Shown piece after piece: positions 4,224 to 43,848 of a stretch of 64,000 nt of DNA (its first letter is position 1; each line of letters starts with the position of its first letter). The notes below the pieces were generated by a model. It was not told the DNA's origin and did no database searches. It worked only from the letters and a program-made list of their open reading frames with translations. Origin of the DNA: a virus; the IMG/VR virus record IMGVR_UViG_3300049783_000824, positions 1-64,000 of that record; one strand, given 5' to 3'. The translations under genes and the position numbers were made by a program.

Positions 4224-4229
4224 ATAAAA

Positions 4230-8262: not shown

Positions 8263-8271
8263 CAGCCCTGA

Positions 8272-8279
8272 TATAAATA
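8272..8279 (+). promoter_or_regulatory. T4-type late promoter octamer
   Basis: A perfect TATAAATA. In T4 this octamer is the -10 element read by the phage late sigma factor and clamp. It lies 33 bases before an ATG at 8305 and 66 bases before the ATG at 8338. Confidence 0.6.
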
Positions 8280-8337
8280 CTATTATACTACGCGGTAATG
8301 TATTATGACATTAATGGGTAATTTAAGGACTTCTGTA

Positions 8338-8607: not shown

Positions 8608-8612
8608 ATATT

Positions 8613-8834
8613 TTACTGATGACTATTATCAATCACTAATAGTAATTTAGATATTCTAGTCCTTAGCCTAATAAGTTCAGAGCTAGCTGCTTGCTTCTCC
8701 GATAACTTTCTAATGATGGCATCTATCTTGTTTATATCCGACTGCAAGTTTTGCCCCAAGGGTTCTTTACGAACCCCAGACATTGTTAAATTCTTCCTGA
8801 TGTACTTATCTTTTAATTCTATAACTTCAGACAT
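8613..8834 (-). CDS. Small helical hypothetical protein on the minus strand
   Basis: A 73-residue, mostly helical protein (SDINKIDAIIRKLSEKQ... ELIRLRTRISKLL) convergent with the preceding gene, with its stop 5 bases from the neighbour's. AGGAA lies 7 bases before the ATG, and a host-type promoter is visible upstream. The heptad-like Leu/Ile spacing suggests a short coiled coil. It could be an early regulatory or host-takeover protein; function unknown. Confidence 0.6.
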   Translation of the reverse strand: MSEVIELKDKYIRKNLTMSGVRKEPLGQNLQSDINKIDAIIRKLSEKQAASSELIRLRTRISKLLLVIDNSHQ

Positions 8835-8858
8835 AATTCATTTCCTATATATCATCTA

Positions 8859-8888
8859 ATTGTACTACAAATAGTATTTTGTTGTCAA
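8859..8888 (-). promoter_or_regulatory. Host-type promoter for the small minus-strand gene
   Basis: Read on the minus strand: TTGACA (8888-8883), an 18-bp spacer, then TACAAT (8864-8859), about 25 bases before the ATG at 8834. The -35 is the perfect sigma70 consensus. It lies in the 243-base gap between divergent genes. Confidence 0.6.
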
Positions 8889-9007
8889 TATTTTAATTAG
8901 GTGGATAATTTTTTAAAAATTATTGTAATTTTTGACCAATTCTTTTTCTTTATATTTCAATAACTTACAGAAAAACTTTCTAATAAATTAATAATTGAGT
9001 GGAGAGC

Positions 9008-26365: not shown

Positions 26366-27400
26366 ATGGCAAGACGTTCATTAAAAGATCTACGTGAGCA
26401 CATTAGTAAATCTGCAAATAATGGCAACAACACAGGTGGGCAATTCTATCCACACTGGAAACTACCAAAGGATGGCGAAACCAGAATTCGGATCACAGAA
26501 GATCCTGATGAAGAGAACCCGTTCATTGCGTACATTGAATACATGGAACACAAACTTGAAGTTGACACTGATCGTGCAAACGCTGAAAGTGATTGGATTA
26601 GAGTACCATGTATTAAAAACTTGGGTAAAAACCACAACTGTCCACTATGTGAACATTCAAGCAAGCTGTATAAGGCAAAAGATGAGGATGCTGGTAAGTA
26701 CTTTTACCGCGAATTATTTGCTCTTCTTCGTGGTGTTGTTGTAGAAGATGGCCTTGAGTATGCAGAAGGTGAAGAAACTCAAACGGGTAAAGAGCTAGTA
26801 TTCAAATTCAGCTACCAGTTGAGCAATGCACTTAAAAGCGAGATGGGAAAGCTAGATGATGACGATATGTTTTGGGATTTGGAAGAAGGCATAGACTTTA
26901 TTATCCAAAAGAAAATGGTTAAGGGTAAAGGCGATAAGGAATATGGGAAGTATGACGTTGGTAGCAGCTTTGCTAGACGACCAAGTGACGTTTCTCAATA
27001 TAAGAATGCTGTTACTGATCAACCATTGTCGGCTCTTATCCCAGAAATCCCATCATATGATGAGGCAGCTGCTGCACTAGCTAGACACTTTAAGTTTAAG
27101 TCTGGTGGTGCTGGCCAATCATCTGGCGATGACGATGACGATAACTCAACCAGCGAAGACGAATTGATGGCACAAATCAACCGTAAGCGCCGGGATAAGA
27201 AGAAAGTTGTAGAAGAGGAAGCACCCGTGAAGGCTGCTAAATCTAAAGTGGTCGAAGACGAGAAAGATGAAGAGGATTTTGATGACATCCCTTTTGATAA
27301 AGAAGATGCTGATGATTCCGATGACAGCATTTTAGATTCTCTTCGTGACGATGACGATGATGATGACGATGATGATATCCTTTCTCAACTGAAAGGGTAA
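26366..27400 (+). CDS. Single-stranded DNA-binding protein (gp32-like)
   Basis: A 344-residue protein with the gp32 layout. A basic N-terminal segment (MARRSLKDLREHI) serves for cooperativity; an OB-fold core contains a zinc-type cysteine cluster VPCIKNLGKNHNCPLCEH (about 82-99), comparable to the T4 Cys/His site. The very acidic C-terminal tail (from about 255) ends in a run of ten Asp followed by ILSQL and is used to bind replication partners. It coats ssDNA in replication, recombination and repair. AAGGAG site. The leader suggests autogenous translational control. Confidence 0.92.
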   Translation: MARRSLKDLREHISKSANNGNNTGGQFYPHWKLPKDGETRIRITEDPDEENPFIAYIEYMEHKLEVDTDRANAESDWIRVPCIKNLGKNHNCPLCEHSSKLYKAKDEDAGKYFYRELFALLRGVVVEDGLEYAEGEETQTGKELVFKFSYQLSNALKSEMGKLDDDDMFWDLEEGIDFIIQKKMVKGKGDKEYGKYDVGSSFARRPSDVSQYKNAVTDQPLSALIPEIPSYDEAAAALARHFKFKSGGAGQSSGDDDDDNSTSEDELMAQINRKRRDKKKVVEEEAPVKAAKSKVVEDEKDEEDFDDIPFDKEDADDSDDSILDSLRDDDDDDDDDDILSQLKG

Positions 27401-27481: not shown

Positions 27482-28588
27482 ATGTCATCATTTATGGAAA
27501 AATATAAAAAGAACTTGGCCAAGCAAGATGGCCTTAATTTAGAACTACTACCCCCAACATATTTCTTAAACACTGGCAACTATGCCTTGAATAAGCTTAT
27601 GACTGGCGACTTTGAAGGTGGAATTCCACAGGGAAGACTGGCATGCTTCTCAGGACATTCTAGCTCTGGTAAGAGTTTGGTAGCTGCCAGCACCATTGCC
27701 CAAATCATCAAGGATGGTGGATATGGTTTTGTTATAGATTCGGAAACCTCTCTGGACTCTGCGTTTATGACAAACTGTGGTGTTGATGTTGACAGCCCCA
27801 ACTATCAGTATATTGGTGTTGATGGAATTCCACAAGCAACTGCACAAGTTAATAACATACTTAAAATGTATCGAGAAACAGGTGAAACCACACGTGGTCT
27901 TATCGTAGTCGATTCGCTTGATATGTTATTAACTGATACTGAACAGAAGCGATTGGATTCTAAGGGAGATATCGGTGGTGACCAAGGACAACAGGCCAAG
28001 CAACTGAAGGCCACACTTAAGACTTGGGTACACTCACTCAACAATCTACCTGTAAGCATCATATGCACTAAACAGCCATACGTTGAGCAAGACCCAATTA
28101 AGGCACTTGAGAACCCATGGAAAATTACGGAATCTTTGAAGTTTGCATTCAGCCAAATCATTATGTTTGAAAAACTGCAATTCAAAAAAGAAGAGAATGG
28201 TAAAAAATCTCATAGGGGATTTACCCTTAAGAGCGTATCATACAAAAACCGTATTGGTCGTGAAAAGCAAGTTGTTAAGATTGAAATTCCTTTTGATCAT
28301 GGTGTTGAGCCATTCTCAGGGTTAATTGAGATTGCAACTGAGTTTGGTATCATCAGTAAAAATGGTGGGTGGTATACACCAGTAGCATTTGAAGGTCCAA
28401 AGTTCCAGCAGGGTAAAGCCGAAGGGGATATCGACTTCATGAACGTGTTATTAGAGCAGATTAAATCTGTCAATAATAAGGACATGGAAGTAAATGCAGC
28501 ACTTGATGACTACGTAAGTGAATCTGAAAAAGGTGAACCAACACGTAAAGCACGCGCAGCACGCAATGTTCCACCGGGTGATGAGTAA
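27482..28588 (+). CDS. uvsX: RecA-like recombinase (UvsX)
   Basis: A 368-residue RecA-fold protein. Walker A is GHSSSGKS (58-65), Walker B is GLIVVDSLDML (about 139-149), and TKQPYVEQDP and the L2-type loop region follow. Length and order behind gp32 fit T4 UvsX (391). It forms presynaptic filaments and drives strand invasion for recombination-dependent replication. The next gene starts directly after its stop codon, and a UvsY candidate and UvsW follow, forming a recombination operon. Confidence 0.92.
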   Translation: MSSFMEKYKKNLAKQDGLNLELLPPTYFLNTGNYALNKLMTGDFEGGIPQGRLACFSGHSSSGKSLVAASTIAQIIKDGGYGFVIDSETSLDSAFMTNCGVDVDSPNYQYIGVDGIPQATAQVNNILKMYRETGETTRGLIVVDSLDMLLTDTEQKRLDSKGDIGGDQGQQAKQLKATLKTWVHSLNNLPVSIICTKQPYVEQDPIKALENPWKITESLKFAFSQIIMFEKLQFKKEENGKKSHRGFTLKSVSYKNRIGREKQVVKIEIPFDHGVEPFSGLIEIATEFGIISKNGGWYTPVAFEGPKFQQGKAEGDIDFMNVLLEQIKSVNNKDMEVNAALDDYVSESEKGEPTRKARAARNVPPGDE

Positions 28589-29155: not shown

Positions 29156-29667
29156 AAGTTATTGATGTTAAAAAACTTAGGGAAGACATCCGTAAGATAA
29201 AACTAAAGACATTCAATGACCTTAATGAAAGTCTAGATAACTTAGATGATATACTAGATGAATATAAATTATTACATAAGGTTTCAAAGGATTTAGTTAA
29301 TCTTAAGGGTGCTGACCTTATTGAAGCTTTAGTCTCACAACCAAATGATTATCTATTTTATAGAACATGTACCAATTACTTGAAAAAGATACTGGACTAC
29401 ATGGAAAGCTTGCTGCGATATGAAAGGGCTAAAGAAGCTGCAAAGATTCGTGAAACCAAATCAAGAGCATCTGATTTGAATGACAGGGCTATTAGTCAAT
29501 TGATAGACGGTAAAGAGTACATCCAAGATATAACTATAAATGTAATTAAAGTTCGTGAGGTCTATGACCTACACTTAACTATAATTGAAGCCTATAACCA
29601 GAGAGGGTATGCCCTCAACAACATAACTAAGGCTAGGGTAGCTGAAATACAAAACATTATACTATGA
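29152..29667 (+). CDS. UvsY-like recombination mediator candidate
   Basis: A 171-residue, fully helical, charged protein overlapping its neighbours by 4 bases on both sides. The C-terminal half (RYERAKEAAKIRETKSRASDLNDRAIS ... GKEYIQDITINVIKVREVY-LHLTIIEAYNQRGYALNNITKARVAEIQN) resembles the order seen in T4 UvsY (DKDVLKVDTSLQY, then a -SRGFAIKHIQDMRAF- type end). UvsY loads UvsX onto gp32-covered ssDNA and would be expected in exactly this operon. T4 UvsY is 137 residues. The call rests on context and weak similarity read by eye. Confidence 0.5.
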   Translation: MKVIDVKKLREDIRKIKLKTFNDLNESLDNLDDILDEYKLLHKVSKDLVNLKGADLIEALVSQPNDYLFYRTCTNYLKKILDYMESLLRYERAKEAAKIRETKSRASDLNDRAISQLIDGKEYIQDITINVIKVREVYDLHLTIIEAYNQRGYALNNITKARVAEIQNIIL

Positions 29668-31139
29668 AAGCAAAAATAAAAATAATAGATGAAGTTAACA
29701 TTGTAGTATCCAATCTACTTGATAGGGACATAAGTAACCTTGCGGATATGTTTGCAGTATACACTAAGGGCTTTAGGCATAATGCCAGTTATAAGCTTGG
29801 TAGGTGGGATGGTAAGATAAAGTTCTTCCATGCAAATGGTAAGTCCTATGTAAAGCTTCTTCCAGAGATAGTCAAGTACCTCAGTAACAATGATTATACC
29901 ATTGATATAATTGACAATCGAGTTAATGTTGATTTAACTATTGATGAAATAGACGAGAACTACCTTAAGGATAAGGGATATGATGTTGTCCTTGGCCCAC
30001 ATCAGGTACGTGGAGTAAACGCACTAACTGAAGAGGGTGGTGGTATATTTGAAGGTGGGACTGGGGCAGGAAAAACTCTTATGACAGCGGTTCTATGCCA
30101 TTTGTATGAAGAGAATCTTAAGTTTAAATGTATTATAATAGTGCCATCATCTGACCTTATTGATCAGACCAAGGATGAGCTTGTAAAATATGGTGTTGAT
30201 GTTGGTGAATACAGTGGAACTATGAAAGATATTAACCATACACACGTTGTGAGCACATGGCAAGCTCTACAGAATAACAAAGGTATCATTGGACAGTTTA
30301 AGGCAGTGATTGTAGATGAGTGCCATGGCGTAGCTGGGGCCACACTACAGGAGATTCTAAATGAACATGGTGCTGGGTGCTTAGTGAGGTTAGGTCTTAC
30401 GGGAACCCTTCCAGAAGCCGATATAGACATGATGGCAGTTACTGTAACACTTGGGCATGTAGTTGAAAAGGTCGAGGCATCTGAGCTTATAGCTAGAGGA
30501 TGGCTTGCAGAATTGAACTTATACACCTATGAGTTGGTCGAAGATGTGCGTAAAGATTATCATGAATTCTGTGAAGAGTATCCACAGGAATCTGCTGACA
30601 TTACTTACAAAGAATACAAAGCAAACTTCTTTGCTGATTTCCAATCGGAAAAGAAATATTTACAAAAGAATCCAAATAGACTTGAGTTTCTTGCTAGGCT
30701 AATTAATAAGCCAAAAAAGAATACGCTGATACTGGTGCCTAATGTTGAGTTTGGTAGAACCTTAGCTAAAATGATACCAAACGCGGTGTTCATTTATGGT
30801 AAAGATGTAAAGGCTGTTCGTAAAATATTGTATAGTTCATTTGATGATAAGGATGACATTGTTGCAATAACGACATTCCAATTAGCATCAACTGGATTGA
30901 ATATAAGACGTATTTTTAATTTGTTTTTAGTTGATCCGGGAAAGAGCTATGTTCAAATTATCCAGAGCATTGGTCGTGGGTTACGGAAGGCACACGATAA
31001 AGATAAGGTAAATGTGTATGACATATACAGTGACTTTAAATTTTCCAAGAGGCATGCAGCTGCAAGGAAGAAGCATTATAAATTGAAGAATTACCCGTTC
31101 AAAAAGAACAAGATAGACTATCTGCCATTAGTGGCATAA
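29664..31139 (+). CDS. uvsW: UvsW-like SF2 DNA/RNA helicase
   Basis: A 491-residue superfamily-2 helicase. The N-terminal UvsW-type domain contains NASYKLGRWDGKIKFF (40-55); then Walker A GGTGAGKT (131-138), DECH box (218-221), LTGT (about 245) and motif VI QSIGRGLR (about 439-446). It remodels branched DNA and R-loops and in T4 helps switch from origin- to recombination-dependent replication. The ATG overlaps the preceding stop by 4 bases. Confidence 0.92.
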   Translation: MKAKIKIIDEVNIVVSNLLDRDISNLADMFAVYTKGFRHNASYKLGRWDGKIKFFHANGKSYVKLLPEIVKYLSNNDYTIDIIDNRVNVDLTIDEIDENYLKDKGYDVVLGPHQVRGVNALTEEGGGIFEGGTGAGKTLMTAVLCHLYEENLKFKCIIIVPSSDLIDQTKDELVKYGVDVGEYSGTMKDINHTHVVSTWQALQNNKGIIGQFKAVIVDECHGVAGATLQEILNEHGAGCLVRLGLTGTLPEADIDMMAVTVTLGHVVEKVEASELIARGWLAELNLYTYELVEDVRKDYHEFCEEYPQESADITYKEYKANFFADFQSEKKYLQKNPNRLEFLARLINKPKKNTLILVPNVEFGRTLAKMIPNAVFIYGKDVKAVRKILYSSFDDKDDIVAITTFQLASTGLNIRRIFNLFLVDPGKSYVQIIQSIGRGLRKAHDKDKVNVYDIYSDFKFSKRHAAARKKHYKLKNYPFKKNKIDYLPLVA

Positions 31140-31157: not shown

Positions 31158-31655
31158 ATGGTAATATCAGATGAAAATTCATACCCAATACTTATTGATG
31201 GTATAGATACGGCAACACTAACAGATTATTTTTGGGTGTTACAACTACAACTTGATAACGAAATGGACTTCATGCTTCAGAAGCTGGAAATGTTTGAAGA
31301 ACAAACAACACCAACTTTAGAGTTTTTAATTGGTGACTACTTAATAGAGGCACCCACTAACTGGAACATACTAGTTTATTCGGAAGAGACTGCCCAGTTG
31401 GATATTGTAGAAGTATCAGATTTAGCTAGATCAAAGTTCACAGCTGTGGTATACTTGCACAATAAAGGCAAAGTTGTACCCGGTCCAATAACTGTTGTTG
31501 ATTATCACCGTGAAGCTCACGTTAGAAATCCTTCACTAAATAAACATACAATGTTATGTCATCACGTTGGCCCAGATGCATGGGTATGCCTAGCACCAAC
31601 AGACAACTATAATAAGTATTTGAAGAATTCTCTAGTTGGTGATCTGCTAGAATAA
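31158..31655 (+). CDS. Conserved phage hypothetical protein (NKHTMLCHHVGPDAWV type)
   Basis: A 165-residue protein with AGGATAAT upstream. The phrases GDYLIEAPTNWNILVYSEETAQLDIV and NPSLNKHTMLCHHVGPDAWVCLAP-DNYNKYLK are ones I recognise from T4-like phage hypothetical proteins. His/Cys clustering near 128-138 might bind metal. It lies behind UvsW and before another conserved unknown. Function unknown. Confidence 0.6.
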   Translation: MVISDENSYPILIDGIDTATLTDYFWVLQLQLDNEMDFMLQKLEMFEEQTTPTLEFLIGDYLIEAPTNWNILVYSEETAQLDIVEVSDLARSKFTAVVYLHNKGKVVPGPITVVDYHREAHVRNPSLNKHTMLCHHVGPDAWVCLAPTDNYNKYLKNSLVGDLLE

Positions 31656-31670: not shown

Positions 31671-32144
31671 ATGGCCGCAAAAAAGAAAAAAAGTACAGTA
31701 GCTAAACAAGTATCGATAAGTGAATTACAATCCTTCATTGAAGGTGCAACCGCATTTAATTCAGATGATTGGCACCCCAATAAGGAACAATGGACTAGAA
31801 TTGTTGAAATGATTATGACAATTAAACCAGAAGAGACTGTTGTTGTGAACAATGTACCACATGTTGTGAATGTACCACAACAAACTCCACAAAGACAGTT
31901 TCTACCATCAACGTTTGGTAGTGGTGATGTGGATGGTGATGGTTATGCCCATAATTCTTCAGTAGCGGATGGTGGATTTGAAGATTTAAGATCAAAAGCA
32001 CCTAGGACTGATATGCGAAAAATTAAGGCTGAGAAAACCGGGATTGGTGGTGTAGATGATAATGGTATCACAGTATCTGGTATAAAAGTTAAGACACCTA
32101 ATGTAGATTCATCAAAAGGTGACTATGACACACCATTTGCGTGA
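31671..32144 (+). CDS. Conserved phage hypothetical protein (DDWHPNKEQW type)
   Basis: A 157-residue protein. The N-terminal half after a lysine-rich start contains ISELQSFIEGATAFNSDDWHPNKEQWTRIVEMIM, a helix pattern I recognise from marine T4-like phages. The second half is Gly/Asp/Val-rich and looks disordered. An AAGGAG site precedes the ATG, and the 3' end overlaps the next gene by 20 bases. It may be an adaptor with a disordered tail; function unknown. Confidence 0.55.
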   Translation: MAAKKKKSTVAKQVSISELQSFIEGATAFNSDDWHPNKEQWTRIVEMIMTIKPEETVVVNNVPHVVNVPQQTPQRQFLPSTFGSGDVDGDGYAHNSSVADGGFEDLRSKAPRTDMRKIKAEKTGIGGVDDNGITVSGIKVKTPNVDSSKGDYDTPFA

Positions 32145-32700
32145 TATAACGCAATTCAGTACCCAACTGAATGGTAGGCTAATGTGTGGGGACGGTGATT
32201 CGATTGTAGAGTTACCATTCTTATACGACCATCTACTTAACGGTGGTTTGGGTTCTGATGTTTTCATATCAAAAAAAGACTGCAATTCACCAGAGGTTGA
32301 ATTTTATAACAAAAGCTTTAGTGAAGAGAAGGTTAATTATAAAAAAGAAATGAAGGATACCTCATTAGATTGGAATATTCCTAAAAGGTATAAAGAGTTG
32401 GATGTTTATGCCTATTTGCTCAATAAACTTAAGGCTGAAGTAAAGAGTTGTGAGTTTAGTGATGATGAGCTTAGGGTTAGATTTTACCGTGTTAAGATGG
32501 AGTTGCGTATTTGGGAAAAAAGAAATTTACTAGATATGTTGCGCTCATTAATTTTTATAGTAAATACACTAGAAGAACAAAAAATTATATGGGGTACTGG
32601 GCGTGGAAGTTCATGTGCATCGTATGCCCTATACCTTATAGGGTTGCATCAAGTAGATAGTGTTGAGTATGAATTAGACATTGGTGAGTTTTTTCGCTGA
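32125..32700 (+). CDS. DnaE-like DNA polymerase III alpha fragment, N-terminal half of the split core (GRGS motif)
   Basis: A 191-residue protein from the ATG at 32125 (a GTG 6 bases earlier is possible). The C-terminal block IIWGTGRGSSCASYALYLIG, followed by LHQVDSVEYELDIGEFFR, matches the GRGSGAGS / LDPL-YDLLFERFL segment of bacterial PolIII alpha that lies immediately before the catalytic PDxDxDF strand. The gene stops exactly at that boundary, and the remaining motifs are found in a separate gene at 38159. The first 150 residues are helical with no PHP motif visible. Whether the two parts assemble into an active enzyme is unknown. Confidence 0.65.
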   Translation: MTHHLRDITQFSTQLNGRLMCGDGDSIVELPFLYDHLLNGGLGSDVFISKKDCNSPEVEFYNKSFSEEKVNYKKEMKDTSLDWNIPKRYKELDVYAYLLNKLKAEVKSCEFSDDELRVRFYRVKMELRIWEKRNLLDMLRSLIFIVNTLEEQKIIWGTGRGSSCASYALYLIGLHQVDSVEYELDIGEFFR

Positions 32701-32708
32701 AGGTATAT

Positions 32709-32716
32709 TATAAATA
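32709..32716 (+). promoter_or_regulatory. T4-type late promoter octamer
   Basis: A perfect TATAAATA 25 bases before the ATG at 32741. It marks the following gene as late although it lies among replication genes. Confidence 0.65.
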
Positions 32717-32740
32717 GTAACATAATGATGGGGTTTAAAA

Positions 32741-33160
32741 ATGGCAAAGAAAAGAAAAGTTAGTAGTGCACTTGGTGAAACTGTAGACTTTGATCTAATG
32801 AGAGTTAAGCAGAATATCGAAAATCGTGATAAGCCAGACGGTGTTGAAATGCGAGAAAAGTATATCGACATCCGTCGTCGTCGTAATCCACGAAGAAATG
32901 TGGCAGATTTGGTTACTGAACAGCGAAGTAATGAAACTGACGCACGTGATAAAATACAGCAAAGCAAGAAGAATAAGCAAGAAGCATTGGCTAAACTGGA
33001 AAGTGAAGCTAAACTAGAAGCACCAACGGATATCACGGTAGAGGATGTTGTTGATACCACGGTATCTACTGAAAAGCCAGACGATACTGAGATACTACAA
33101 GCTTCACCTAAGAAGAAAATTGTAAAGCGTACCCAACCTGAGGAGAACTCAGACAAATAA
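32741..33160 (+). CDS. Conserved basic/acidic hypothetical protein (KKRKVSSALGETVDFDL type), probably late
   Basis: A 139-residue protein with an N-terminal block KKRKVSSALGETVDFDLMRVKQNI and YIDIRRRRNPRRNV that I recognise from marine T4-like phages, then a helical Lys/Glu-rich part and an acidic, probably disordered tail ending in KKKIVKRTQPEENSDK. The arginine-rich patch could bind nucleic acid. The upstream late promoter suggests a head-internal or DNA-bound virion protein. Confidence 0.55.
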   Translation: MAKKRKVSSALGETVDFDLMRVKQNIENRDKPDGVEMREKYIDIRRRRNPRRNVADLVTEQRSNETDARDKIQQSKKNKQEALAKLESEAKLEAPTDITVEDVVDTTVSTEKPDDTEILQASPKKKIVKRTQPEENSDK

Positions 33161-33489
33161 TGGAAGCTAATATGCGTAAAGAAATTGACCCAGTACATAA
33201 CCAGATTTTGTTCCAATTTGTAGAAGACACAACTAGGGGCAAGTTTAATGAGAAATCCAACGGGGGCATTCTACTTGTTGAAGATAGTAGCAAGCAAGTG
33301 GAACATTGTAGATGGGGCACGGTAGTATCAACTGGACCGAATGTTAAGGACGTTGTAGAGGGTGAAGTTATTCTCATAAACGCCCTAATGTGGACTAATG
33401 GTTTTAGGATGACAGACACCGATTACTGGATAACTTCTGAACCCGAAATAATTGCTAAATGGGTCGATGACAATAGTCTTCCTAGTTAA
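33160..33489 (+). CDS. GroES-like co-chaperonin candidate (gp31 analogue)
   Basis: A 109-residue protein. The pattern NQILFQFVEDT ... SNGGILLVED ... WGTVVSTGPNVKDVVEGEVILI is that of a GroES-type beta-barrel: a G-I-hydrophobic mobile-loop end, then GTVVxxGP, then EGEVIL. The segment corresponding to the mobile loop (about 17-37) is present. T4 gp31 replaces host GroES so that gp23 can fold, and marine T4-like phages often carry such genes. An alternative start is the ATG at 33172. The similarity is read by eye and not certain. Confidence 0.5.
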   Translation: MEANMRKEIDPVHNQILFQFVEDTTRGKFNEKSNGGILLVEDSSKQVEHCRWGTVVSTGPNVKDVVEGEVILINALMWTNGFRMTDTDYWITSEPEIIAKWVDDNSLPS

Positions 33490-33501
33490 ATAAATATACC
33501 C

Positions 33502-34386
33502 ATGAGATCTTATATTTTCCCCACAATAGTAATGTTGGCAGCATTGGCACTCGCAGCTGGTGCAGCCTTATTTACTATACTTGGATTTCGAGAATTATTT
33601 GAACCGTCATTAAAGATAACCTTAATGGCAGCTTCAATTGAACTCGGTAAGATTGTTGCCGTATCTGCACTATATCAGTTCAAGGATGTTCTGGGGTGGA
33701 TATCAAAACTATTCCTACTATTCCTAATTATTGTTGCTATGGCAGTTACTTCTATGGGTGTTTATGGATACCTATCAAGTGCATACCAACGGGATTCGTT
33801 GGCAATAACCCAGAACAGTGCTAAGCTTGAGCTTTTAAGTAGCAGGAAAGCAGCCTTAGAGCAACGCCTAGGCGGTATGGATCAACAGATAGCAAACGTA
33901 CCAGAGGCATACGTGTCGAAGCGTATGGAGCTTATATCAACGTTTAAACCCGAACGTACATCAGTATTGAATGAACTGGACGTGCTAGAACAACAAAACC
34001 TAGATTTAACACTAGATAAGCTTAGCAAAGAGACCGAATTTGGTGCAATATTGTTATTAGCTAACTCAGTAGATTGGCTAGATGCAGATAATGCAATGTT
34101 GTATTTTATACTGGCAGTCATATTCATCTTTGACCCGATGGCAATAGCCTTGACGTTTGCGTCTAACGTAGGGTATGCTAAGGCTGCTTCAGACACAGCT
34201 AAGAAAAATGATACTGTTGAACCTGTAGTTGTTGACCAACCCACATCTAGTTTAAATGATGATGAAGTTAAAAGCATAGCTACAGCCCTTAGTGACTTGG
34301 CAAATGAAGTTAAAGAAATGAAGAATTCCACCCCAAAGAACAATCGTTCTGAAATATTAGATAACATGAGAAAACAAAAAGCTTGA
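33502..34386 (+). CDS. Conserved membrane protein with coiled-coil loop
   Basis: A 294-residue protein with about four transmembrane segments: near 8-28, 40-57 (weak), 67-90 and 194-218. Between the third and fourth lies a long charged helical domain (about 95-190) with heptad character that probably crosses or faces the periplasm. The C-terminus is a cytoplasmic helical tail. The LGFRELFEPSLKITLMAASIELGKIV segment is one I recognise from phage membrane proteins. It may anchor phage processes to the inner membrane; function unknown. Confidence 0.65.
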   Translation: MRSYIFPTIVMLAALALAAGAALFTILGFRELFEPSLKITLMAASIELGKIVAVSALYQFKDVLGWISKLFLLFLIIVAMAVTSMGVYGYLSSAYQRDSLAITQNSAKLELLSSRKAALEQRLGGMDQQIANVPEAYVSKRMELISTFKPERTSVLNELDVLEQQNLDLTLDKLSKETEFGAILLLANSVDWLDADNAMLYFILAVIFIFDPMAIALTFASNVGYAKAASDTAKKNDTVEPVVVDQPTSSLNDDEVKSIATALSDLANEVKEMKNSTPKNNRSEILDNMRKQKA

Positions 34387-34411
34387 TAACCCAACCATAA
34401 TCTTGTATAAT
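34383..34411 (+). promoter_or_regulatory. Strong host-type promoter for the clamp-loader genes
   Basis: TTGATA (34383-34388), a 17-bp spacer, then TATAAT (34406-34411), 26 bases before the gp44 ATG. It is one of the closest matches to sigma70 consensus in the window. Confidence 0.7.
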
Positions 34412-34436
34412 CGTCCCCTTATAAGGGAATTGATAT

Positions 34437-35369
34437 ATGTTAAAAAAACTATGGGTACGATCATACATGCCCACCAAACTTGAAGATTATGTTTTTCAAA
34501 ATGAACACAACAGGGTTCAATTTACCAAATTCGTAAAAGATAAATCCTTCCCCCATTTGCTGTTGAAAGGACATAAGGGTTCGGGCAAGACTACCATGGC
34601 CCTTATCCTTAAGAATGAACTCGGCATACTCGACGGTGATTTTAAATTTCTAAACTCAGCGGATGATAACTCTATTAATGTGGTTCGTAATGTTATTAAA
34701 CCTTTTAGTGAATCAATGCCTCTTGGTGAATTTAAGGTAGTCCTATTAGACGAAGCTGAGTTTTTAAGTACAGAAGCACAGAAAGCATTATGTGGTATGC
34801 TGGAGCGATACTCAGATACTGTCAGGTTTATATTAACATGTAATAGACCACACAAGATAATACCTGAACTCAAATCACGGTGTACAGAATTCTCCTTTAA
34901 TGAATTTGATAAGAAGTCAATGGCAACACATGTATATAAAATCCTGAAGAACGAGGGTGTTACGGTGTCCAGTGTTGAACTGCTTATGGGCTATGTTAAT
35001 GAAAGCTACCCAGACATGCGTAAGATACTGCAAAACCTAGAGACTAACGTTATTGATGGGGTATTAGAGCCAGCAAATGGCAGTGATGAGAAAAGCCAAC
35101 TCCTTTTGGACATTGTTGACCAGCTAAGTGCAGGTAAATGGTTAGAGGTTAGGGCCGGTATTGTACAGAACATTGAGGAGCATGAATGGGATGAGATTTA
35201 TAGATTTCTATACGATAACTTAGATCAAATTGAAGGCTTTGATAACACAGACAATTGGAAGTGTGGTATCATTATACTTGCAGATCATATCAGGTTTCAT
35301 TATCAGGTTGCTGACCCTGAAATAAATTTCAGCGCATGTATGATAAGACTATCAGGAGTTATTAAATAA
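34437..35369 (+). CDS. Sliding-clamp loader large subunit (gp44-like)
   Basis: A 310-residue AAA+ ATPase. Walker A is GHKGSGKTT (45-53), Walker B is VVLLDEAEFL (101-110, DEAE type), sensor 1 is ILTCNRPHKI (about 132-141) and the arginine-finger motif is ELKSRCTEF (144-152). Length matches T4 gp44 (319). It opens the gp45-type clamp with the small subunit. The clamp gene itself is not in the window. A gp62 candidate follows after one small gene. AAGGGAATTGAT precedes the ATG. Confidence 0.93.
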   Translation: MLKKLWVRSYMPTKLEDYVFQNEHNRVQFTKFVKDKSFPHLLLKGHKGSGKTTMALILKNELGILDGDFKFLNSADDNSINVVRNVIKPFSESMPLGEFKVVLLDEAEFLSTEAQKALCGMLERYSDTVRFILTCNRPHKIIPELKSRCTEFSFNEFDKKSMATHVYKILKNEGVTVSSVELLMGYVNESYPDMRKILQNLETNVIDGVLEPANGSDEKSQLLLDIVDQLSAGKWLEVRAGIVQNIEEHEWDEIYRFLYDNLDQIEGFDNTDNWKCGIIILADHIRFHYQVADPEINFSACMIRLSGVIK

Positions 35370-35689
35370 TGACAAGAGAATTACAATTAGATGAAGACCA
35401 AGCAAGACTAGACTTAGATAACGTATCTAAGTTTTCTGACAAAAATCAACGTCTGGCATGGAGACGTAAGCGAACAAAAATGGATGAGTTGTTAGCAAAA
35501 ATTCTGCCATACGAAGAACAAATCTTGGAGATAATCTACGAGAAGCAATCAATTATGGATGATATTGAAGTCGTGCGGAAGGCAATGGTAAAAGAATGTG
35601 TTCACCCTGCTGACTATCTTGTGCATAAGGGAAACTTTATACTGTGCAAATTTTGCAAAAACAAAATTGTAATTAACAATGGCAAATAA
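35369..35689 (+). CDS. Conserved small phage protein with a C-terminal Cys/His zinc-type motif
   Basis: A 106-residue protein overlapping the clamp-loader stop by one base, with an AGGAG site. The helical part (SDKNQRLAWRRKRTKMDELLAKILPYEEQIL) is followed by ECVHPADYLVHKGNFILCKFCKNKI, a C-x-H ... CxxC arrangement that probably binds zinc. I recognise it as a conserved T4-like protein encoded with the clamp loader. Function unknown. Confidence 0.65.
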   Translation: MTRELQLDEDQARLDLDNVSKFSDKNQRLAWRRKRTKMDELLAKILPYEEQILEIIYEKQSIMDDIEVVRKAMVKECVHPADYLVHKGNFILCKFCKNKIVINNGK

Positions 35690-36137
35690 GCTTGATATCT
35701 TCAAGGTATTGGAAAAGGTAGACGATTTTGACATCGACTACTTTAATGGGCTAACTGATGATGAGAAGAAGTCGTTAGCACCCTACGTACTTATGTTGTG
35801 GATGTCAGGTACTAAGTCTCAAACCCAGCTGATACAACTAAATGTGTTTATGAATTCATTAGTATTTAAGATTCCACCTGAACATAGTGGTTTGTTATAT
35901 AAGTTAGCATGCGTTGCTAGTGATGGCAAAAGAAAGAAGTACAATTGGGTAGGTAAGAAAACCAAAAGCAAGAAATATGCAACGGCAACCGATGTGCTAA
36001 GTAGATATTATAGATGCAGTACGACAGAAGCTCTTGGGTATATTGGTATTCTTAACTATGATGATGTTGCTGAAATTGCCATGGAACTTGGTGAACAGGA
36101 CGATACACTGAAGAAAATCAAAAAAGAGATGAAATGA
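35679..36137 (+). CDS. Clamp-loader small subunit candidate (gp62-like)
   Basis: A 152-residue helical protein overlapping the previous gene by 11 bases. The order DIDYFNGLTDDEKKSLAPYVLMLWMSG, then a middle NVFMNSLVFKIPPEHSGLLYKLAC and a W-containing stretch, is what I associate with gp62-type subunits of marine T4-like phages, and the position two genes behind gp44 agrees. gp62 holds the gp44 tetramer together. Sequence evidence is weak; context carries the call. Confidence 0.6.
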   Translation: MANKLDIFKVLEKVDDFDIDYFNGLTDDEKKSLAPYVLMLWMSGTKSQTQLIQLNVFMNSLVFKIPPEHSGLLYKLACVASDGKRKKYNWVGKKTKSKKYATATDVLSRYYRCSTTEALGYIGILNYDDVAEIAMELGEQDDTLKKIKKEMK

Positions 36138-36820
36138 GTAGTAGTGGTACATATTTTGAATGCAAGCACTGTTTAAAAAAGTTCATAAGTGAACGTTATT
36201 ATAACAAACATGAATGTGAACAAATGAAACGGTTTAAACTCCTTGGGACAAATAGGGGCAGTATTGCATATTCATGTTATTGCTCTTGGGCAACGCATAA
36301 AGGATATCGTAAGCCAACAGTAGACCATTTTATAGACTCAAGAAAATTCAAAGCATTTTTTAGGTTCATTGAATTCTCAAATAAAATGGCATTACCTGCA
36401 AGGGATAGATACATTGAGTACATGACTAGCTTAGGTATTAATCCTGTTGACTGGACAAAGAAAATTGTATACGAACATTACATAACTGAATTTGATAATA
36501 TCTTTTCCCCAGAGGATCAAGCTGCGATAACTGTTGATACCGTATTTGAACTCGCTAGAATATACGAATGTGAGACCGATGACATATTCACATACATGGA
36601 GGCTAACACGCTACTGCAATTAGTTCAAGCGAAAAAACTTTCACCTTGGGTGTTGCTATTTTCAAATAAGTTTATAAGTTTTATTCAAAATGATATGACC
36701 CGAGAACAGAGAATCATGTTAAAGACTAACATGGACATAACTTCATGGGAGGTGATATTCAAAAAATCAGTAAAGACGGCAAAGAAAATGCAGACCTATG
36801 TAAATGCGTTGGGTATTTAA
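36134..36820 (+). CDS. C2H2 zinc-finger phage protein, possible helicase-loader-type
   Basis: A 228-residue protein overlapping the previous gene by 4 bases. The start FECKHCLKKFISERYYNKHECE is a C2H2-type finger (CxxC, then H-x-C). The rest is helical with SWATHKGYRKPTVDHFIDSRKFKAFFRFIEF, YEHYITEF and LSPWVLLFSNKFISFI. I know this finger-plus-helix protein as conserved in T4-like marine phages. The helical half loosely resembles the order of elements in T4 gp59, the gp41 loader; that is speculation. It closes the clamp-loader operon. Confidence 0.6.
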   Translation: MSSSGTYFECKHCLKKFISERYYNKHECEQMKRFKLLGTNRGSIAYSCYCSWATHKGYRKPTVDHFIDSRKFKAFFRFIEFSNKMALPARDRYIEYMTSLGINPVDWTKKIVYEHYITEFDNIFSPEDQAAITVDTVFELARIYECETDDIFTYMEANTLLQLVQAKKLSPWVLLFSNKFISFIQNDMTREQRIMLKTNMDITSWEVIFKKSVKTAKKMQTYVNALGI

Positions 36821-37056
36821 CCGCAACCCCAGTTACTGATTGGGTAGATTCTACTTGTTGAATGGGGTGGTATTTGGAACTGTGAATAACCAGCCCAACA
36901 ATTAACCCATTGGGGTGTGTGGTTAATAATACGCATATATGGCATCTGCATACCATATTTGTCGAACACGGGGACTTGTTGACAACAACTATAACTATTT
37001 GACAGTGGTGAAAAGCATAGTAGGGTTATAAGTATGAGTAGTGATATTTTATACAT
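36817..37056 (-). CDS. Small exported protein with signal peptide
   Basis: A 79-residue minus-strand protein. MYKISLLILITLLCFSPLSNSYS is a typical Sec signal peptide (n-, h- and c-region). The mature part begins with two Cys and contains Trp, Cys and Pro. The Cys just after the predicted cleavage point is not in a good lipobox, so soluble periplasmic or poorly matching lipoprotein are both possible. It overlaps the stop of the upstream gene by one base (TAATG) and the end of the plus-strand gene by 4 bases. The arrangement with the upstream membrane protein resembles a two-gene lysis or superinfection cassette. Confidence 0.6.
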   Translation of the reverse strand: MYKISLLILITLLCFSPLSNSYSCCQQVPVFDKYGMQMPYMRIINHTPQWVNCWAGYSQFQIPPHSTSRIYPISNWGCG

Positions 37057-37448
37057 TATTCGAGTTCTCCAGTTGAAGGAAGTCCCTTTGAAAGGATTCC
37101 CGATGATATGATTGCTGACCGGCGTACCGATAAGGCTTCGGAATTTTGCTTTATTTGGTCGTATATTCGTTGTGAATTTAATGACATGGGTTCAACTGGC
37201 ACACCAGTTTGGACAGATGTTGCAGTTGTTGCAGCTACATCAGACTCTATCTCACTCAGCCTATAGTCATTGAGTGACAAGTGGAGTTCTATGCTTCTGA
37301 ATTCACTCAACACGTTAGCACTGAGTATATCATTTTTACTAGCAAGATTATTGTTAGCCCAAAAAATTGCACCAGATATTGAACTAACGATTGTTATAAC
37401 ACCTATTATCATAGATATGTTGTCGTTGATTGATTTTAGTATGGCCAT
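37056..37448 (-). CDS. Single-pass membrane protein, first gene of a minus-strand pair
   Basis: A 130-residue protein with one transmembrane segment near residues 12-31 (SMIIGVITIVSSISGAIFWA) and a soluble, helical C-terminal part with heptad traces (VLSEFRSIELHLSLNDYRLSEIESDV). The topology with a short N-terminus is like inner-membrane spanins or antiholin-like proteins. It is translationally coupled to the small exported protein. No family recognised. It is isolated on the minus strand between two plus-strand operons. Confidence 0.55.
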   Translation of the reverse strand: MAILKSINDNISMIIGVITIVSSISGAIFWANNNLASKNDILSANVLSEFRSIELHLSLNDYRLSEIESDVAATTATSVQTGVPVEPMSLNSQRIYDQIKQNSEALSVRRSAIISSGILSKGLPSTGELE

Positions 37449-37470
37449 AGGTTATGATTATCCATTATTA

Positions 37471-37478
37471 TATAAATA
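37471..37478 (+). promoter_or_regulatory. T4-type late promoter octamer
   Basis: A perfect TATAAATA within a very AT-rich stretch, 31 bases before the ATG at 37510. The AT richness makes a chance match more likely than elsewhere. Confidence 0.5.
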
Positions 37479-37509
37479 TATATATGTTATTTACACTGAA
37501 GGTTAACAA

Positions 37510-38169
37510 ATGAGAGATATAGAAAACTGGATAGATATAGACACAAAACGGGTTGGATTGCTATCCAAATCTGATTGGACACAATTACCAGATAGTGGGC
37601 TTAGTAAAAGCTGTGTTATTGAATGGAAGGTCTGGCGTGGTGCTATGCGTAAAGTCAATAAGCATATCTACGATCAACCGTTGGTGGCAGTTGTTGTTAT
37701 TAAAGAGTTGCAGGACAGTTTACCCAAAAATGTATACGCTGATAACACTGTGCAGGTAGCATCTGACGGCCCAATTATACCACAACCTAAAGAGAAAACA
37801 ATAGACGACATCCGGGACTTACCTGAAGGTAAAATTTACGGCAAGACTAAACTTGAGGTTGAATATAGAAGTAAAATACTTAAGGCATCACCCCCATTGG
37901 AATTATCATTCCTATACTCAGAACGTCTTAGTCAGGCTATTGACTACTTATCAGACAACGGTACTGCGTTCCCGTTGCTTGACGTTCTTTCTGAAAGTTT
38001 GGGCAAGTCCACGGAAGAAGTAGCAGTTAGTATACTCAAAAAGCAAACAAATACTATCAATAGTTTTGCAACCATTGAACGTGGCTATATCGAATGCTTG
38101 AAAGACGTAAATAAATCTGCTACAATGTCTGATATAAAAGAGGCTCTAGTTAAATTCGATGGATATTGA
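37510..38169 (+). CDS. Tail-assembly-chaperone-like protein (SDWTQLPDS motif)
   Basis: A 219-residue protein. RVGLLSKSDWTQLPDSGLSKSCVIEWKVWRGAMRKV (about 14-49) matches the R-LL--SDWTQ-PD--L----W--YR-LR pattern of phage tail-fibre-assembly/XkdW-type proteins. The rest is helical and variable. Such proteins are small virion-assembly factors. The upstream late octamer fits. The end overlaps the DnaE-like fragment gene by 11 bases, an odd pairing of a tail-type gene with a polymerase-type gene. Confidence 0.6.
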   Translation: MRDIENWIDIDTKRVGLLSKSDWTQLPDSGLSKSCVIEWKVWRGAMRKVNKHIYDQPLVAVVVIKELQDSLPKNVYADNTVQVASDGPIIPQPKEKTIDDIRDLPEGKIYGKTKLEVEYRSKILKASPPLELSFLYSERLSQAIDYLSDNGTAFPLLDVLSESLGKSTEEVAVSILKKQTNTINSFATIERGYIECLKDVNKSATMSDIKEALVKFDGY

Positions 38170-38728
38170 TATAGACCTGATACCGGGCGTAGACCCACGT
38201 GAGTTGTTTAGAAATGCTATACCAGCATCGATGGTAAATGATGGTGTGTTGAAGAAGCACCCCGTAGGATATTACTTCCAAGATATACCTGTAGATAAAG
38301 TAACTGGGCTATCAGCAATACCATACAAAGAGTCTGAAGACTTCGGGTATTATAAAATAGACCTACTCACCGTTAATATACTCAAATCATTTGACTCAAA
38401 AGAAGAAATGGTTAGGCTGCAGAAGATAGAACCTAATTGGAATTTATTAAAAGATGCGAAAGTTGTTGAAAAGCTATTCCATCTTGGTAAGCACTACAGT
38501 GTAATCAATAAGGTAAAACCAAAAAGTATTCTAGCATTAGCTGATGTGTTTGCATTAATCCGACCAAACAAAAGACCACTGCTTGATAAATACATTGAGA
38601 ACCCAGAGAAATACCGAACTGAGTTGTACACTAAGCGTGCACCGGAAGATATGCGCAAAGCACACGCTATACCATATGCAATCTTGATTGTATTACAATT
38701 ACATTTAGTTGAGCAAGGAAGACTATGA
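38159..38728 (+). CDS. DnaE-like DNA polymerase III alpha fragment, C-terminal half of the split core (catalytic Asp motifs)
   Basis: A 189-residue protein beginning MDIDIDLIPGVDPRELF, which corresponds to the PDxDxDF---RR motif with two catalytic Asp of bacterial PolIII alpha. It continues with KKHPVGYYF (32-40), like the HPAG motif, and GYYKIDLLTVNIL (63-75), like the KFDFLGL motif with the third catalytic Asp (Asp68). The spacing between Asp pair and third Asp is about 62 residues against about 150 in E. coli, so the core is much reduced. The piece N-terminal to this point is the separate gene at 32125. It overlaps both neighbours by a few bases. Confidence 0.65.
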   Translation: MDIDIDLIPGVDPRELFRNAIPASMVNDGVLKKHPVGYYFQDIPVDKVTGLSAIPYKESEDFGYYKIDLLTVNILKSFDSKEEMVRLQKIEPNWNLLKDAKVVEKLFHLGKHYSVINKVKPKSILALADVFALIRPNKRPLLDKYIENPEKYRTELYTKRAPEDMRKAHAIPYAILIVLQLHLVEQGRL

Positions 38729-42644: not shown

Positions 42645-43249
42645 TTATAGGGGTATCTGGTGCACAGGGTCAAGGCAAATCAACACTTATAAGTGATTGT
42701 GATGCTAGTAACTCTGGTGGGCGTAAGTTATGGCTACAGACCTCTAGAAAACTACTCATCGATTGGGGATATACATTGGGCGACGTTAATAAGTATGCCC
42801 CATTAAAAGTTAAATTTCAAGATGAAATTATTAAACGACATGAGAAATCACTAATCTGGGCACTTGAACAAGCATCAGAAGCTAAGCATGTGTTTTTATC
42901 TGAAAGAACATTTGCAGACATATTTACTTATGCCCTTGCATCAATAGGCCCACACAATGAATATTCCAATTGGCTAGATGAGTATGCAGAAAAGTGCTCA
43001 GAAGCTCAAAAGAAGTATTTCCATACAGTGTTATTTCTGCAGGGCAGGGAATATGTCCCGGAGGATGACGGTGTTAGGTCTGTAAATATTCATTTTGCAC
43101 ATCTTGCAAATTCAATGATATTACATTATGCTGAAACATTCTCGAATAATGACTCGTTACTTGTTGTTAATGTGTCTGATAGGAAATCAAGAGTTCAACA
43201 CTTAAATGCTAGAATAGCTAAAATAAAGGAAGAAAATAAATGGGCATAA
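42641..43249 (+). CDS. P-loop kinase-like protein
   Basis: A 202-residue P-loop NTPase. Walker A is GVSGAQGQGKST (4-15), and HVFLSERTFADIFTYAL (about 86-102) has the D/E-R lid-type arrangement of deoxynucleoside/nucleotide kinases and of AAA_28-type kinases. A HFAHLANSMI stretch follows. It probably phosphorylates a nucleoside, nucleotide or small metabolite; the substrate cannot be read. It overlaps its neighbours by 4 and 10 bases. Confidence 0.65.
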   Translation: MIIGVSGAQGQGKSTLISDCDASNSGGRKLWLQTSRKLLIDWGYTLGDVNKYAPLKVKFQDEIIKRHEKSLIWALEQASEAKHVFLSERTFADIFTYALASIGPHNEYSNWLDEYAEKCSEAQKKYFHTVLFLQGREYVPEDDGVRSVNIHFAHLANSMILHYAETFSNNDSLLVVNVSDRKSRVQHLNARIAKIKEENKWA

Positions 43250-43848
43250 AGATACACGACATAATTGCAATAGACTGTGAAACTAGTGGCATGAACCTAA
43301 ATGCAAACAGATGCCTTAATCAGAATTCTGTAGCACATGGATACCAAGCAGTATCATGGGGCATTGTTATTACCGACACTGAAACCTTTAAGGTTAAGGA
43401 TGAACTATACGTCATGATCAAATGGAATGGTAAATCCAAATGGAATGCAAAAGCTGAGAGTATACATGGCCTTAGTAAGGAATACCTTGAAGAACATGGT
43501 ATGGATGAGGAAGACGCAGTTGTTGAAATCATGGAGTTCCTGATGAAGCATCTGGATATTACAGCACCACTGTATTGCCTTGGGCATAATGTCGTATCGT
43601 TTGATATTCCTTTCCTGAAAGATTTGTTCACTCGATATGAGTTATCAGACATTAAGTTTGGGCATAGACACCTAGACACGTTTGCACTTTCTATGGGTAC
43701 GGTACAGGAGTTTGATTCTGACACACTATTCAAACGTGTTGGGCTTAAGGATAGGGGTGAGCATAACGCATTAGAAGATGCAAAAAACGCACTTGAAGTG
43801 TATCGGAGACTAAATAAAGCATGGACACAGATGTTAGCGAAAAGTTAG
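43240..43848 (+). CDS. DEDDh 3'-5' exonuclease (RNase T/DnaQ-like, DexA-type)
   Basis: A 202-residue exonuclease with the complete DEDDh set: IAIDCETSG (about 8-16) with the first Asp and Glu, GHNVVSFDIPFL (about 114-125) with the second Asp, and HNALEDA (about 180-186) with His and the last Asp. In T4 DexA is a DNA exonuclease of the same fold. It may proofread for the DnaE-like fragments, which carry no exonuclease motif, or act in DNA degradation. Confidence 0.85.
   Translation: MGIKIHDIIAIDCETSGMNLNANRCLNQNSVAHGYQAVSWGIVITDTETFKVKDELYVMIKWNGKSKWNAKAESIHGLSKEYLEEHGMDEEDAVVEIMEFLMKHLDITAPLYCLGHNVVSFDIPFLKDLFTRYELSDIKFGHRHLDTFALSMGTVQEFDSDTLFKRVGLKDRGEHNALEDAKNALEVYRRLNKAWTQMLAKS

Follow-up and report, generated by a model that had tools for sequence, protein, structure and literature searches.

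Two polymerase-like genes in a replication cassette

The window, i.e. the whole stretch of 64,000 nucleotides analysed here, carries two open reading frames (ORFs), hereafter the N-half and the C-half, which lie among genes for DNA replication and recombination. The N-half ORF extends to position 32700 from either a GTG at 32119 or an ATG at 32125, the latter preceded by AAAGGTGA, and its product ends in ...GTGRGSSCASYALYLIGLHQVDSVEYELDIGEFFR. The C-half product opens with MDIDIDL and has HPVG at residues 34-37 and KIDLL at residues 66-70, the start of its gene overlapping the preceding gene by 11 bases. The two ORFs are separated by 5,458 bases, and both clamp-loader genes are located inside this gap. 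A previous sequence-only reading, which had proposed a DnaE-like core split at the GRGS/DxDxD boundary, with the halves 5.5 kb apart and the clamp-loader genes between them, agrees with the ORFs and with the phrog_168 and phrog_225 matches.

Table 1. Coordinates of the N-half, the C-half and the surrounding genes in the window
Feature	Coordinates	Strand	Evidence
DnaB-type replicative helicase (context)	18785..20275	+	phrog_19 5.6e-51
Single-strand DNA-binding protein (context)	26366..27400	+	phrog_1192 1.3e-22
UvsX-type recombinase (context)	27482..28588	+	phrog_97 2.3e-42
UvsW-type helicase, cassette gene 1	29664..31139	+	phrog_16 8.5e-73; PF21241 UvsW_N 38.1 bits
phrog_11279 protein, no assigned function, between UvsW and N-half	31158..31655	+	1.1e-34
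N-half: first palm part of a minimal Pol III alpha, with GRGS NTP-binding loop	32125..32700	+	profiles, hhalign, model
GroES-like (Cpn10), constant N-half neighbour	33160..33489	+	PF00166 25.5 bits
Clamp-loader large subunit, T4 gp44 type	34437..35369	+	phrog_168 3.9e-69
Clamp-loader small subunit, gp62-like	35679..36137	+	phrog_225 6.2e-7
phrog_11058 protein, CxxC...HxC zinc-finger-like start	36134..36820	+	phrog_11058 2.3e-41; motif read
Gene directly upstream of C-half, part resembling phage tail assembly chaperone domains	37510..38169	+	PF16778 23.0 bits, below 26.6 cut-off
C-half: Pol III alpha DxDxD strand, HxxG and K-x-D strand, with fingers shortened	38159..38728	+	
DnaQ/RNase_T-type exonuclease, possible proofreading partner	43240..43848	+	PF00929 50.1 bits

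The order UvsW, phrog_11279, N-half, GroES-like, gp44, gp62-like, zinc-finger protein and C-half forms a conserved cassette. Within 5 kb of the N-half, the GroES-like gene was found in 48/48 counted loci and gp44 in 43/48, while within the same distance of the C-half the gp62-like gene was present in 30/32 loci and the phrog_11058 gene in 29/32, the latter at a median gap of 218 b. Counting against the reading favoured below, gp44 and the GroES-like gene lie this close to the C-half in just 5/32 and 3/32 loci, and phrog_11058 and the gp62-like gene this close to the N-half in 16/48 and 19/48. The phrog_11058 protein is a candidate third subunit. As for the PF16778-like gene, 11 matches occur in the locus set; among the loci listed, only the window, XacN1, RAS14 and L132 have it.

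A reduced C-family polymerase core in two halves

Concerning the N-half, the match to Pfam PF07733 is above threshold (26.7 bits for a cut-off of 23.9), that to phrog_11127 covers nearly the full length (2.2e-42), and hhalign aligns the protein with E. coli Pol III alpha (97.8%, E 8.5e-13). In its confident predicted model (pLDDT 92.5), residues 79-193 superpose on residues 276-393 of E. coli alpha, with Z of 11.6-12.6 and rmsd of 2.1-2.8 over 108-112 aligned residues for 2hnh, 4jom and 5fkv. Residues 1-78 fall outside the structure matches and, as modelled, provide no evidence for a new fold. A BFVD search with the N-half ranked phage Pol III alpha or DNA polymerase entries at the top, two of them at E <= 0.001 and some rows being nameless.

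The C-half matches phrog_11778 over nearly its full length (2e-59). Pfam alone remained sub-threshold (PF17657, 12.3 of 22 bits) and the profile matches in the PDB were weak (best E 0.24), so that its identity was settled by profile-profile alignment with Pol III alpha (hhalign 96.9%, E 1.6e-10) and by fold comparison. Its model, also confident (pLDDT 96.2), superposes over residues 1-189 on residues 400-783 of E. coli alpha (2hnh: Z 9.7, rmsd 5.0, 185 aligned) and on residues 462-840, in its own numbering, of Thermus 3e0d (Z 9.9, rmsd 4.2, 188 aligned); overall, its Z values to Pol III structures ranged from 6.3 to 10.1, only partly above the 7-8 that the tool rates as common. With Foldseek alone, neither half model had a PDB match at E <= 0.001 (best 1.4e-3 and 1.2e-2). 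Both PHROGs are already annotated as 'DNA polymerase', and the two model ranges on E. coli alpha abut without overlap. Each of the two ORFs is one half of a C-family polymerase core in reduced form. The proposed kinship with Pol III alpha is upheld by hhalign for both halves, and the predicted C-half, with all three catalytic Asp residues, superposes whole on the known palm and fingers.

The counterparts of the catalytic triad of E. coli Pol III alpha (D401, D403 and D555) are all located in the C-half, the N-half contributing the GRGS loop. Asp2, Asp4 and Asp6 of the window align with D401, D403 and D405, and Asp68 with D555 (the last by hhalign), while C-half model residue 4 falls on 403 in 2hqa and residue 1 on 400 in 2hnh. 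By this alignment the triad is Asp2/Asp4/Asp68, which replaces the Asp4/Asp6/Asp68 first assigned. The intact active-site signature with a shortened Asp spacing, also part of the sequence-only reading, was confirmed, Asp4 and Asp68 being 64 residues apart vs. 152 for D403-D555 of E. coli. In addition, the 110 residues between D401 and H511 are reduced to 32, from which the loss of the thumb was read, and the 121 between R639 and H760 to 34. Judging from the model ranges and from Pfam (only PF07733 and the sub-threshold PF17657), the halves together lack PHP and thumb as well as the C-terminal part, and most of the fingers is gone.

What is left of the core is strictly conserved. G161-R162-G163-S164 is invariant in 71/71 aligned N-halves, with identities to the window down to 27%, and also in 12/12; D2, D4, D6, H34, K66, D68, R135, P136 and H169 are invariant in 50/50 C-halves (identity to the window down to 37% in this alignment) and in 11/11. 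That the halves are catalytically dead and form a regulatory or structural subunit, as their reduction and their never being fused in one ORF of the examined set might suggest, is very unlikely in view of these invariant catalytic positions. An active nucleotidyltransferase other than a template-directed DNA polymerase, one that extends protein or the ends of DNA or RNA by nucleotides, would account for a palm kept while the template-primer-holding thumb and much of the fingers are gone, as the two shortened spacings indicate. This activity is nonetheless unlikely, since the DnaE fingers residues (R639/P640 and the His of K-x-H) are invariant and the genes sit among clamp-loader and helicase genes.

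The split and its distribution

Where both halves were seen, they lie 4.4 kb to 230 kb apart and are never adjacent. The split boundary is identical in 11 isolate phages and in viral contigs: in the aligned isolates, the EFFR-type motif is followed by 0-2 residues at the end of N-halves, and 1-18 residues precede the DxDxD strand in C-halves. Of all ORFs of at least 60 aa from 159 viral-contig loci and from the window, none matched both half-profiles. ORFs of 566-579 aa with an N-profile match, present in eight loci, turned out to be unsplit PHP-less DnaE and not fusions of the minimal halves, as judged from a reading of five of these sequences and from a Pfam and PHROGs scan of one. That the split is an artefact, whether a frameshift, an assembly error, a split intein or the recent breakage of one gene, has practically no chance of being correct: no point in its favour was found, it is refuted by the common boundary and the spacing counts, and the N-half ends and C-half starts leave no room for intein parts.

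Each of the 11 isolate genomes, which were chosen for a match to one half (Vibrio phage 2.275.O among them is titled 'partial genome'), carries the N-half and the C-half once and has a PolB match. T4 has neither half. Phages 121Q and Sharanji of E. coli belong to the group with the pair, K-12 MG1655 being the host given for Sharanji. Pol A matches were found in 0/11 isolates and the DnaE profile gave only fragments, so that, with PolB in 11/11, Pol A and DnaE were rejected as alternative replicases. When searched with PolB of XacN1 and RAS14, the incomplete 73.7-kb record that contains the window gave no match. An exonuclease of the RNase_T type (PF00929) was detected by Pfam profile in 8/11 of these pair-bearing genomes, and the window exonuclease by BLAST in 3/11, one of the matches being weak (E 0.008); its absence at Pfam sensitivity from Slicko01, Phosso and SCTP-2 led to its rejection as an obligate subunit.

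These counts bear on whether the pair is a main replicase, e.g. for one strand, sharing replication with PolB, which is one of two roles called conceivable by Iyer et al. 2021 (Viruses 13:63, PMC7824862). Linkage to both clamp-loader subunits and UvsW, as well as the exonuclease in 8/11 genomes, would fit such a role. We consider it distinctly unlikely, because every isolate has a PolB match and the match to E. coli alpha ends at residue 783 of 1160, the Pol III processivity parts being absent. Of the earlier suggestion of an auxiliary or regulatory polymerase, the auxiliary part thus gains from PolB in the isolate relatives, while the regulatory part is not supported, the catalytic residues being invariant.

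Relatives of the two halves occur in at least 574 and at least 587 stretches of viral contigs; the arrangement, called unusual in the sequence-only reading, is not peculiar to the window and was published in 2021. Among 26 long viral contigs, both halves were found in 14, the N-half only in eight and the C-half only in four, which counts against the favoured reading. In two N-only contigs, G012 and G017 (200 and 156 kb, possibly fragments), a maximum-sensitivity profile search found no C-half (best E 0.98); a C-half motif regex match in G012 lies inside a 1,524-residue ORF and was judged to be due to chance. Two C-only contigs have an unsplit DnaE of ~570 residues and no N-half. A cellular origin was rejected: the 12 matching species-genome contigs are all titled MAGs and have gp62-like and phrog_11058 genes beside the C-half in 12/12 cases (weakest phrog_11058 match 4.9e-5), for which reason they resemble phage DNA that lies within the bins. 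L314 and L315, two of these contigs, seem to be one and the same sequence.

Proposed role and relation to known polymerases

The favoured reading, which we consider probable, is that the predicted heterodimer is an active, low-processivity accessory DNA polymerase linked to the clamp-loader machinery. It is based on homology, complementary folds, catalytic conservation, co-occurrence in isolates and gene linkage, from which we infer pairing, catalysis, accessory role and recruitment. Pairing of the two proteins would restore the catalytic core of a C-family polymerase (Pol III alpha) without its thumb. To this core the N-half would contribute the GRGS loop, gripping the triphosphate of the incoming NTP, and one part of the palm, and the C-half the two-metal Asp triad and the shortened fingers region. 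The heterodimer may fill gaps or carry out repair synthesis, possibly with recombination intermediates as substrates, alongside the phage B-family replicase, and would be brought to DNA by the clamp-loader system, possibly also by the zinc-finger protein encoded beside the C-half. A difficulty for this reading is the grip on the primer-template, since thumb, PHP and beta-binding or tau-binding parts are all absent. A possible but rather unlikely extension is a single multi-subunit C-family polymerase without thumb, made up of the two halves and the phrog_11058 zinc-finger protein. In this enzyme the zinc-finger protein would grip DNA in place of the thumb, and the gp44/gp62 loader would serve both the enzyme and PolB, giving a T4-type replisome a second, Pol III-type polymerase.

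If active, the pair would, to our knowledge, rank with the smallest C-family polymerases. It would be the product of two genes, and one phage would have both a Pol III-type polymerase and a family B polymerase that is eukaryote-like. Direct tests would then be possible on a minimal core of the replicative polymerase of bacteria, with a bearing on the origin of Pol III, and the conserved cassette points to partners for joint purification.

Compared with DnaE (E. coli 2HNH, Thermus 2HPI/3E0D, M. tuberculosis 7PU7), the window pair shares the palm and partial fingers in sequence and fold (PF07733, hhalign, models), the Asp triad, the GRGS loop, the DxDxD strand, HxxG, the K-x-D strand and the RP and K-x-H motifs. 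Unlike DnaE, a single chain of 1160 residues that includes PHP, thumb, complete fingers and a C-terminus that binds the clamp, it consists of two chains of ~190 residues each, without PHP, thumb, most of the fingers, OB and the beta- or tau-binding part. The pair is a derived relative of DnaE, not a canonical DnaE. From phrog_11127 and phrog_11778, the catalogued families of the halves, there is no difference.

Among the matches examined in the open-licence PubMed Central literature, only PMC7824862 describes the split system, and a literature search of the same open-licence papers found no experimental study of the pair. For jumbo phages of group 2.2, PMC7824862 reports a minimal Pol III alpha that is split into two stand-alone proteins, encoded by distant genes, beside a family B polymerase, and places Atu_ph07, an isolate of the present set, in this group. 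Like that system, the window and its relatives have two proteins split at the GRGS/DxDxD boundary and encoded by non-adjacent genes, and the window pair is without PHP, thumb and C-terminal Pol III domains; there is no difference in kind. The present analysis adds the residue conservation counts, the fold placement, the clamp-loader/GroES/zinc-finger cassette, the 141-kb non-jumbo carrier Slicko01, and the C-half contigs with an unsplit PHP-less DnaE.

Two genes matching DNA polymerase III alpha

The virus record behind the window is incomplete (73,686 bases, of which the window covers 64 kb). Among named phages, both proteins point to Xanthomonas phage XacN1 and the Stenotrophomonas phages CM1 and RAS14 as its closest kin, with identities of 46% and 42% for the N-half and 58% and 51% for the C-half. 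The sequence-only reading had proposed a DnaE-like polymerase split into two genes, and both were found as described: the N-half has the GRGS motif and YELDIGEFFR at its end, the C-half begins MDIDIDL, and clamp-loader genes of the gp44 and gp62 type (T4-type large and small subunits) lie between them.

Profile searches matched both halves to Pol III alpha/DnaE. The N-half scored above the curated cut-off of PF07733 (Pol III alpha NTPase domain) and matched phrog_11127 (2.2e-42); the C-half matched phrog_11778 (2e-59), its Pfam matches being below cut-off only. One profile, made from seven DnaE proteins, served for both halves in hhalign, which gave a probability of 97.8% (E 8.5e-13) for 71 N-halves, with GRGS 161-164 paired with E. 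coli 361-364, and 96.9% (E 1.6e-10) for 50 C-halves, with H34, K66, D68 and R135/P136 paired with H511, K553, D555 and R639/P640. With HMMER, Pol III chains 5lew and 7pu7 aligned to both the K-x-H motif and the DxDxD strand, and in the correct order, each score alone being meaningless and another segment of the match conflicting with hhalign. Fold alignments placed model residue 4 on 403 (2hqa) and residue 5 on 404 (4jom), that with 5fkv being off by one. Since HMMER and the fold alignments agree on this strand, Asp2/4/6 were equated with D401/403/405; the catalytic triad first proposed (Asp4/Asp6/Asp68) thus lay one Asp too far along it.

The AlphaFold2 models were confident, with a pLDDT of 96.2 (C-half) and 92.5 (N-half). 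With VIA-align, the C-half superposed on E. coli alpha 400-783 (2hnh, Z 9.7, rmsd 5.0, 185 aligned) and its top 16 rows were all Pol III alpha, PolC or entries titled DNA polymerase (Z 6.3-10.1; next row Z 4.0), while N-half residues 79-193 superposed on 276-393 (Z 11.6 for 2hnh, 12.6 for 5fkv and 4jom), the top 14 rows being likewise Pol III-type or DNA polymerase entries (Z 8.1-13.4; next Z 3.9). Foldseek alone also ranked Pol III alpha first for both models, though at E-values of only 1.4e-3 and 1.2e-2. The two matched ranges adjoin without overlap, which fits the prediction for a split enzyme. Neither half matched the PHP domain or anything past E. coli alpha residue 783. The D401-H511 spacing is 110 residues in E. 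coli vs. 32 in the window pair, a loss of 78 that equals the size of the thumb, which we take to be 433-510 in E. coli alpha; the R639-H760 spacing falls from 121 to 34 in the C-half, a cut in the fingers.

Conservation and distribution of the pair

After exclusion of open-ended, weak and over-long ORFs and then of near-duplicates, the alignments held 50 C-halves (the window and 49 of 85 ORFs; 37 to 69% identity to the window) and 71 N-halves (the window and 70 of 82; 27 to 63%). D2, D4, D6, H34, G37, K66, D68, P121, R135, P136, H169 and Y173 are invariant in all 50 C-halves, and E128, G159, G161, R162, G163, S164 and F191 in all 71 N-halves; in the isolate alignment, F191 is kept in 11/12. 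The D-x-D strand is close to the start in 84 of the 85 C-half ORFs, the exception (locus L110) starting inside the domain. This retention of catalytic positions argues against a catalytically dead subunit, which is judged improbable.

Annotated-phage records matched the N-half query in 77 cases and the C-half query in 63; among the 60 matches listed for each half, most were jumbo phages of the RaK2, 121Q, GAP32, PA5oct, Atu_ph07 and XacN1 types, with ten Bacillus and Cellulophaga records among those of the N-half. Several jumbo phage records (e.g. JN882285.1, KU574722.1, MK773491.1) label the C-half 'putative membrane protein', apparently a copied misannotation. Eleven isolate records, chosen for having a match to one half, were searched whole: each holds exactly one N-half, one C-half and a PolB (family B polymerase) match, and neither half was found in T4. 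A main-replicase role would be rather doubtful beside this PolB. The pair is not limited to jumbo phages, as Alishewanella phage Slicko01, a 141-kb circular record, has both halves, its N-half being diverged (19% to the window).

The IMG/VR scans gave at least 574 and at least 587 confirmed stretches for the two halves, from which the best 80 loci per half were retained. Among 26 long contigs picked from these, which may be fragments, 14 have both halves, 8 only the N-half and 4 only the C-half; PolB was found in 15/26. The N-only contigs (112-200 kb; G012 and G016-G022, carrying L189, L202, L206, L153, L199, L162, L197 and L178) may be fragments or carry a different partner. In long records having both, the halves lie 4.9 to 230 kb apart, and the closest spacing at any locus is 4.4 kb (L161); they are never adjacent in the long records and loci with both. 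That the split is an artefact is extremely improbable.

In two C-only contigs there is also an unsplit DnaE without PHP domain, about 570 residues long, at distances of 5.6 and 4.6 kb from the C-half. Six more C-half loci have a similar one, a second C-family polymerase gene within the same viral contig.

Positions of features in the window and in compared records
Feature	Record	Position (strand)	Remark
N-half	window	32125(32119)-32700 (+)	
phrog_11058 protein	window	36134-36820	zinc-finger-like start
C-half	window	38159-38728 (+)	
553-aa protein	window	39616-41277 (-)	SITP/AVTP tandem stretch, then repeats like LLHTLDNPN...GKAYIFNV; perhaps, as a guess from sequence, a surface or fibre protein
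DnaQ/RNase_T exonuclease	window	43240-43848	4.5 kb from C-half
Gene 9	KM507819.1 (121Q)	8128-8946	annotated 'DNA polymerase III'; matches RNase_T exonuclease profile
Unsplit PHP-less DnaE	L115	16085-17809	PF07733 147 bits, PF17657 54 bits
Unsplit PHP-less DnaE	L109, L108, L086, L100, L080, L065, L105		other C-half contigs
PolB over two open frames	OQ508956.1 (Slicko01)	3529-5033	
PolB over two open frames	LR588166.1 (MIJ3)	124889-128666	
PolB over two open frames	MF403008.1 (Atu_ph07)	212336-213688	

Gene cassette and neighbouring exonuclease

The order UvsW - phrog_11279 - N-half - GroES-like - gp44 - gp62-like - phrog_11058 - C-half was found in 8 of 31 loci compared (window, XacN1, RAS14, L132, L134, L150, L160 and L161), with extra genes between some members, and its N-half-to-C-half portion in L057, L059 and L061. 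In 121Q, Phosso and Atu_ph07, N-half - GroES - gp44 is separated from gp62-like - phrog_11058 - C-half, UvsW and phrog_11279 still preceding the N-half in 121Q, and phrog_11279 in Atu_ph07. In L139 and L152, UvsW through phrog_11058 is unbroken, followed by the C-half only after about 30 kb; at the same point, about 10 kb is inserted in XacN1 and RAS14. Given the common descent of these phages and the overlap between a few of the loci, they are not independent events.

Only loci flanked by 5 kb or more on each side entered the linkage counts: 48 of 97 for the N-half and 32 of 99 for the C-half. A GroES-like gene was no farther than 5 kb from the N-half in 48/48 and gp44 in 43/48; the C-half had a gp62-like gene in that range in 30/32 and phrog_11058 in 29/32, the latter at a median gap of 218 bases. 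The gp62-like gene and phrog_11058 also adjoin the C-half in 12/12 contigs of a separate set from species genomes, two of which are apparently the same sequence. The phrog_11058 proteins, as frequent a C-half neighbour as the gp62-like gene, start CxxC...HxC, as read from the window and L115.

PF00929 matched in 8 of the 11 isolates, with no match in T4 or the other three. The distance from this exonuclease to the C-half is under 5 kb in XacN1, RAS14, 121Q, RaK2, GAP32 and Vibrio phage 2.275.O, and larger in MIJ3 and Atu_ph07. Proofreading for the split enzyme would be a possible role, but one weakened by the fact that replication genes cluster anyway and by the three isolates without a match. 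From its RNase_T match, 121Q gene 9 is an epsilon-like exonuclease, not alpha.

Relation to known systems

The analysis shows homology, complementary folds, conserved residues, joint occurrence and gene linkage. The best supported reading, and a reasonably probable one, is a two-chain C-family core: the halves would pair, the reconstituted core would be catalytic, and it would act as an accessory polymerase. A nucleotidyltransferase other than a DNA polymerase appears unlikely. No experimental study of the pair was found in the literature searched. The Atu_ph07 paper describes an epsilon subunit and a single gene, gp316, for an alpha subunit; gp316 is probably the N-half, its gene number being close to clamp loader gp312. 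Iyer et al. 2021 (PMC7824862) described a split minimal Pol III alpha in group 2.2 jumbo phages; as its main text holds none of the words GroES, C2H2, zinc finger or Zn-finger, the cassette is taken as unreported there. The split polymerase is therefore already known as a kind: the window is a further member, and the present comparison contributes the gene cassette.
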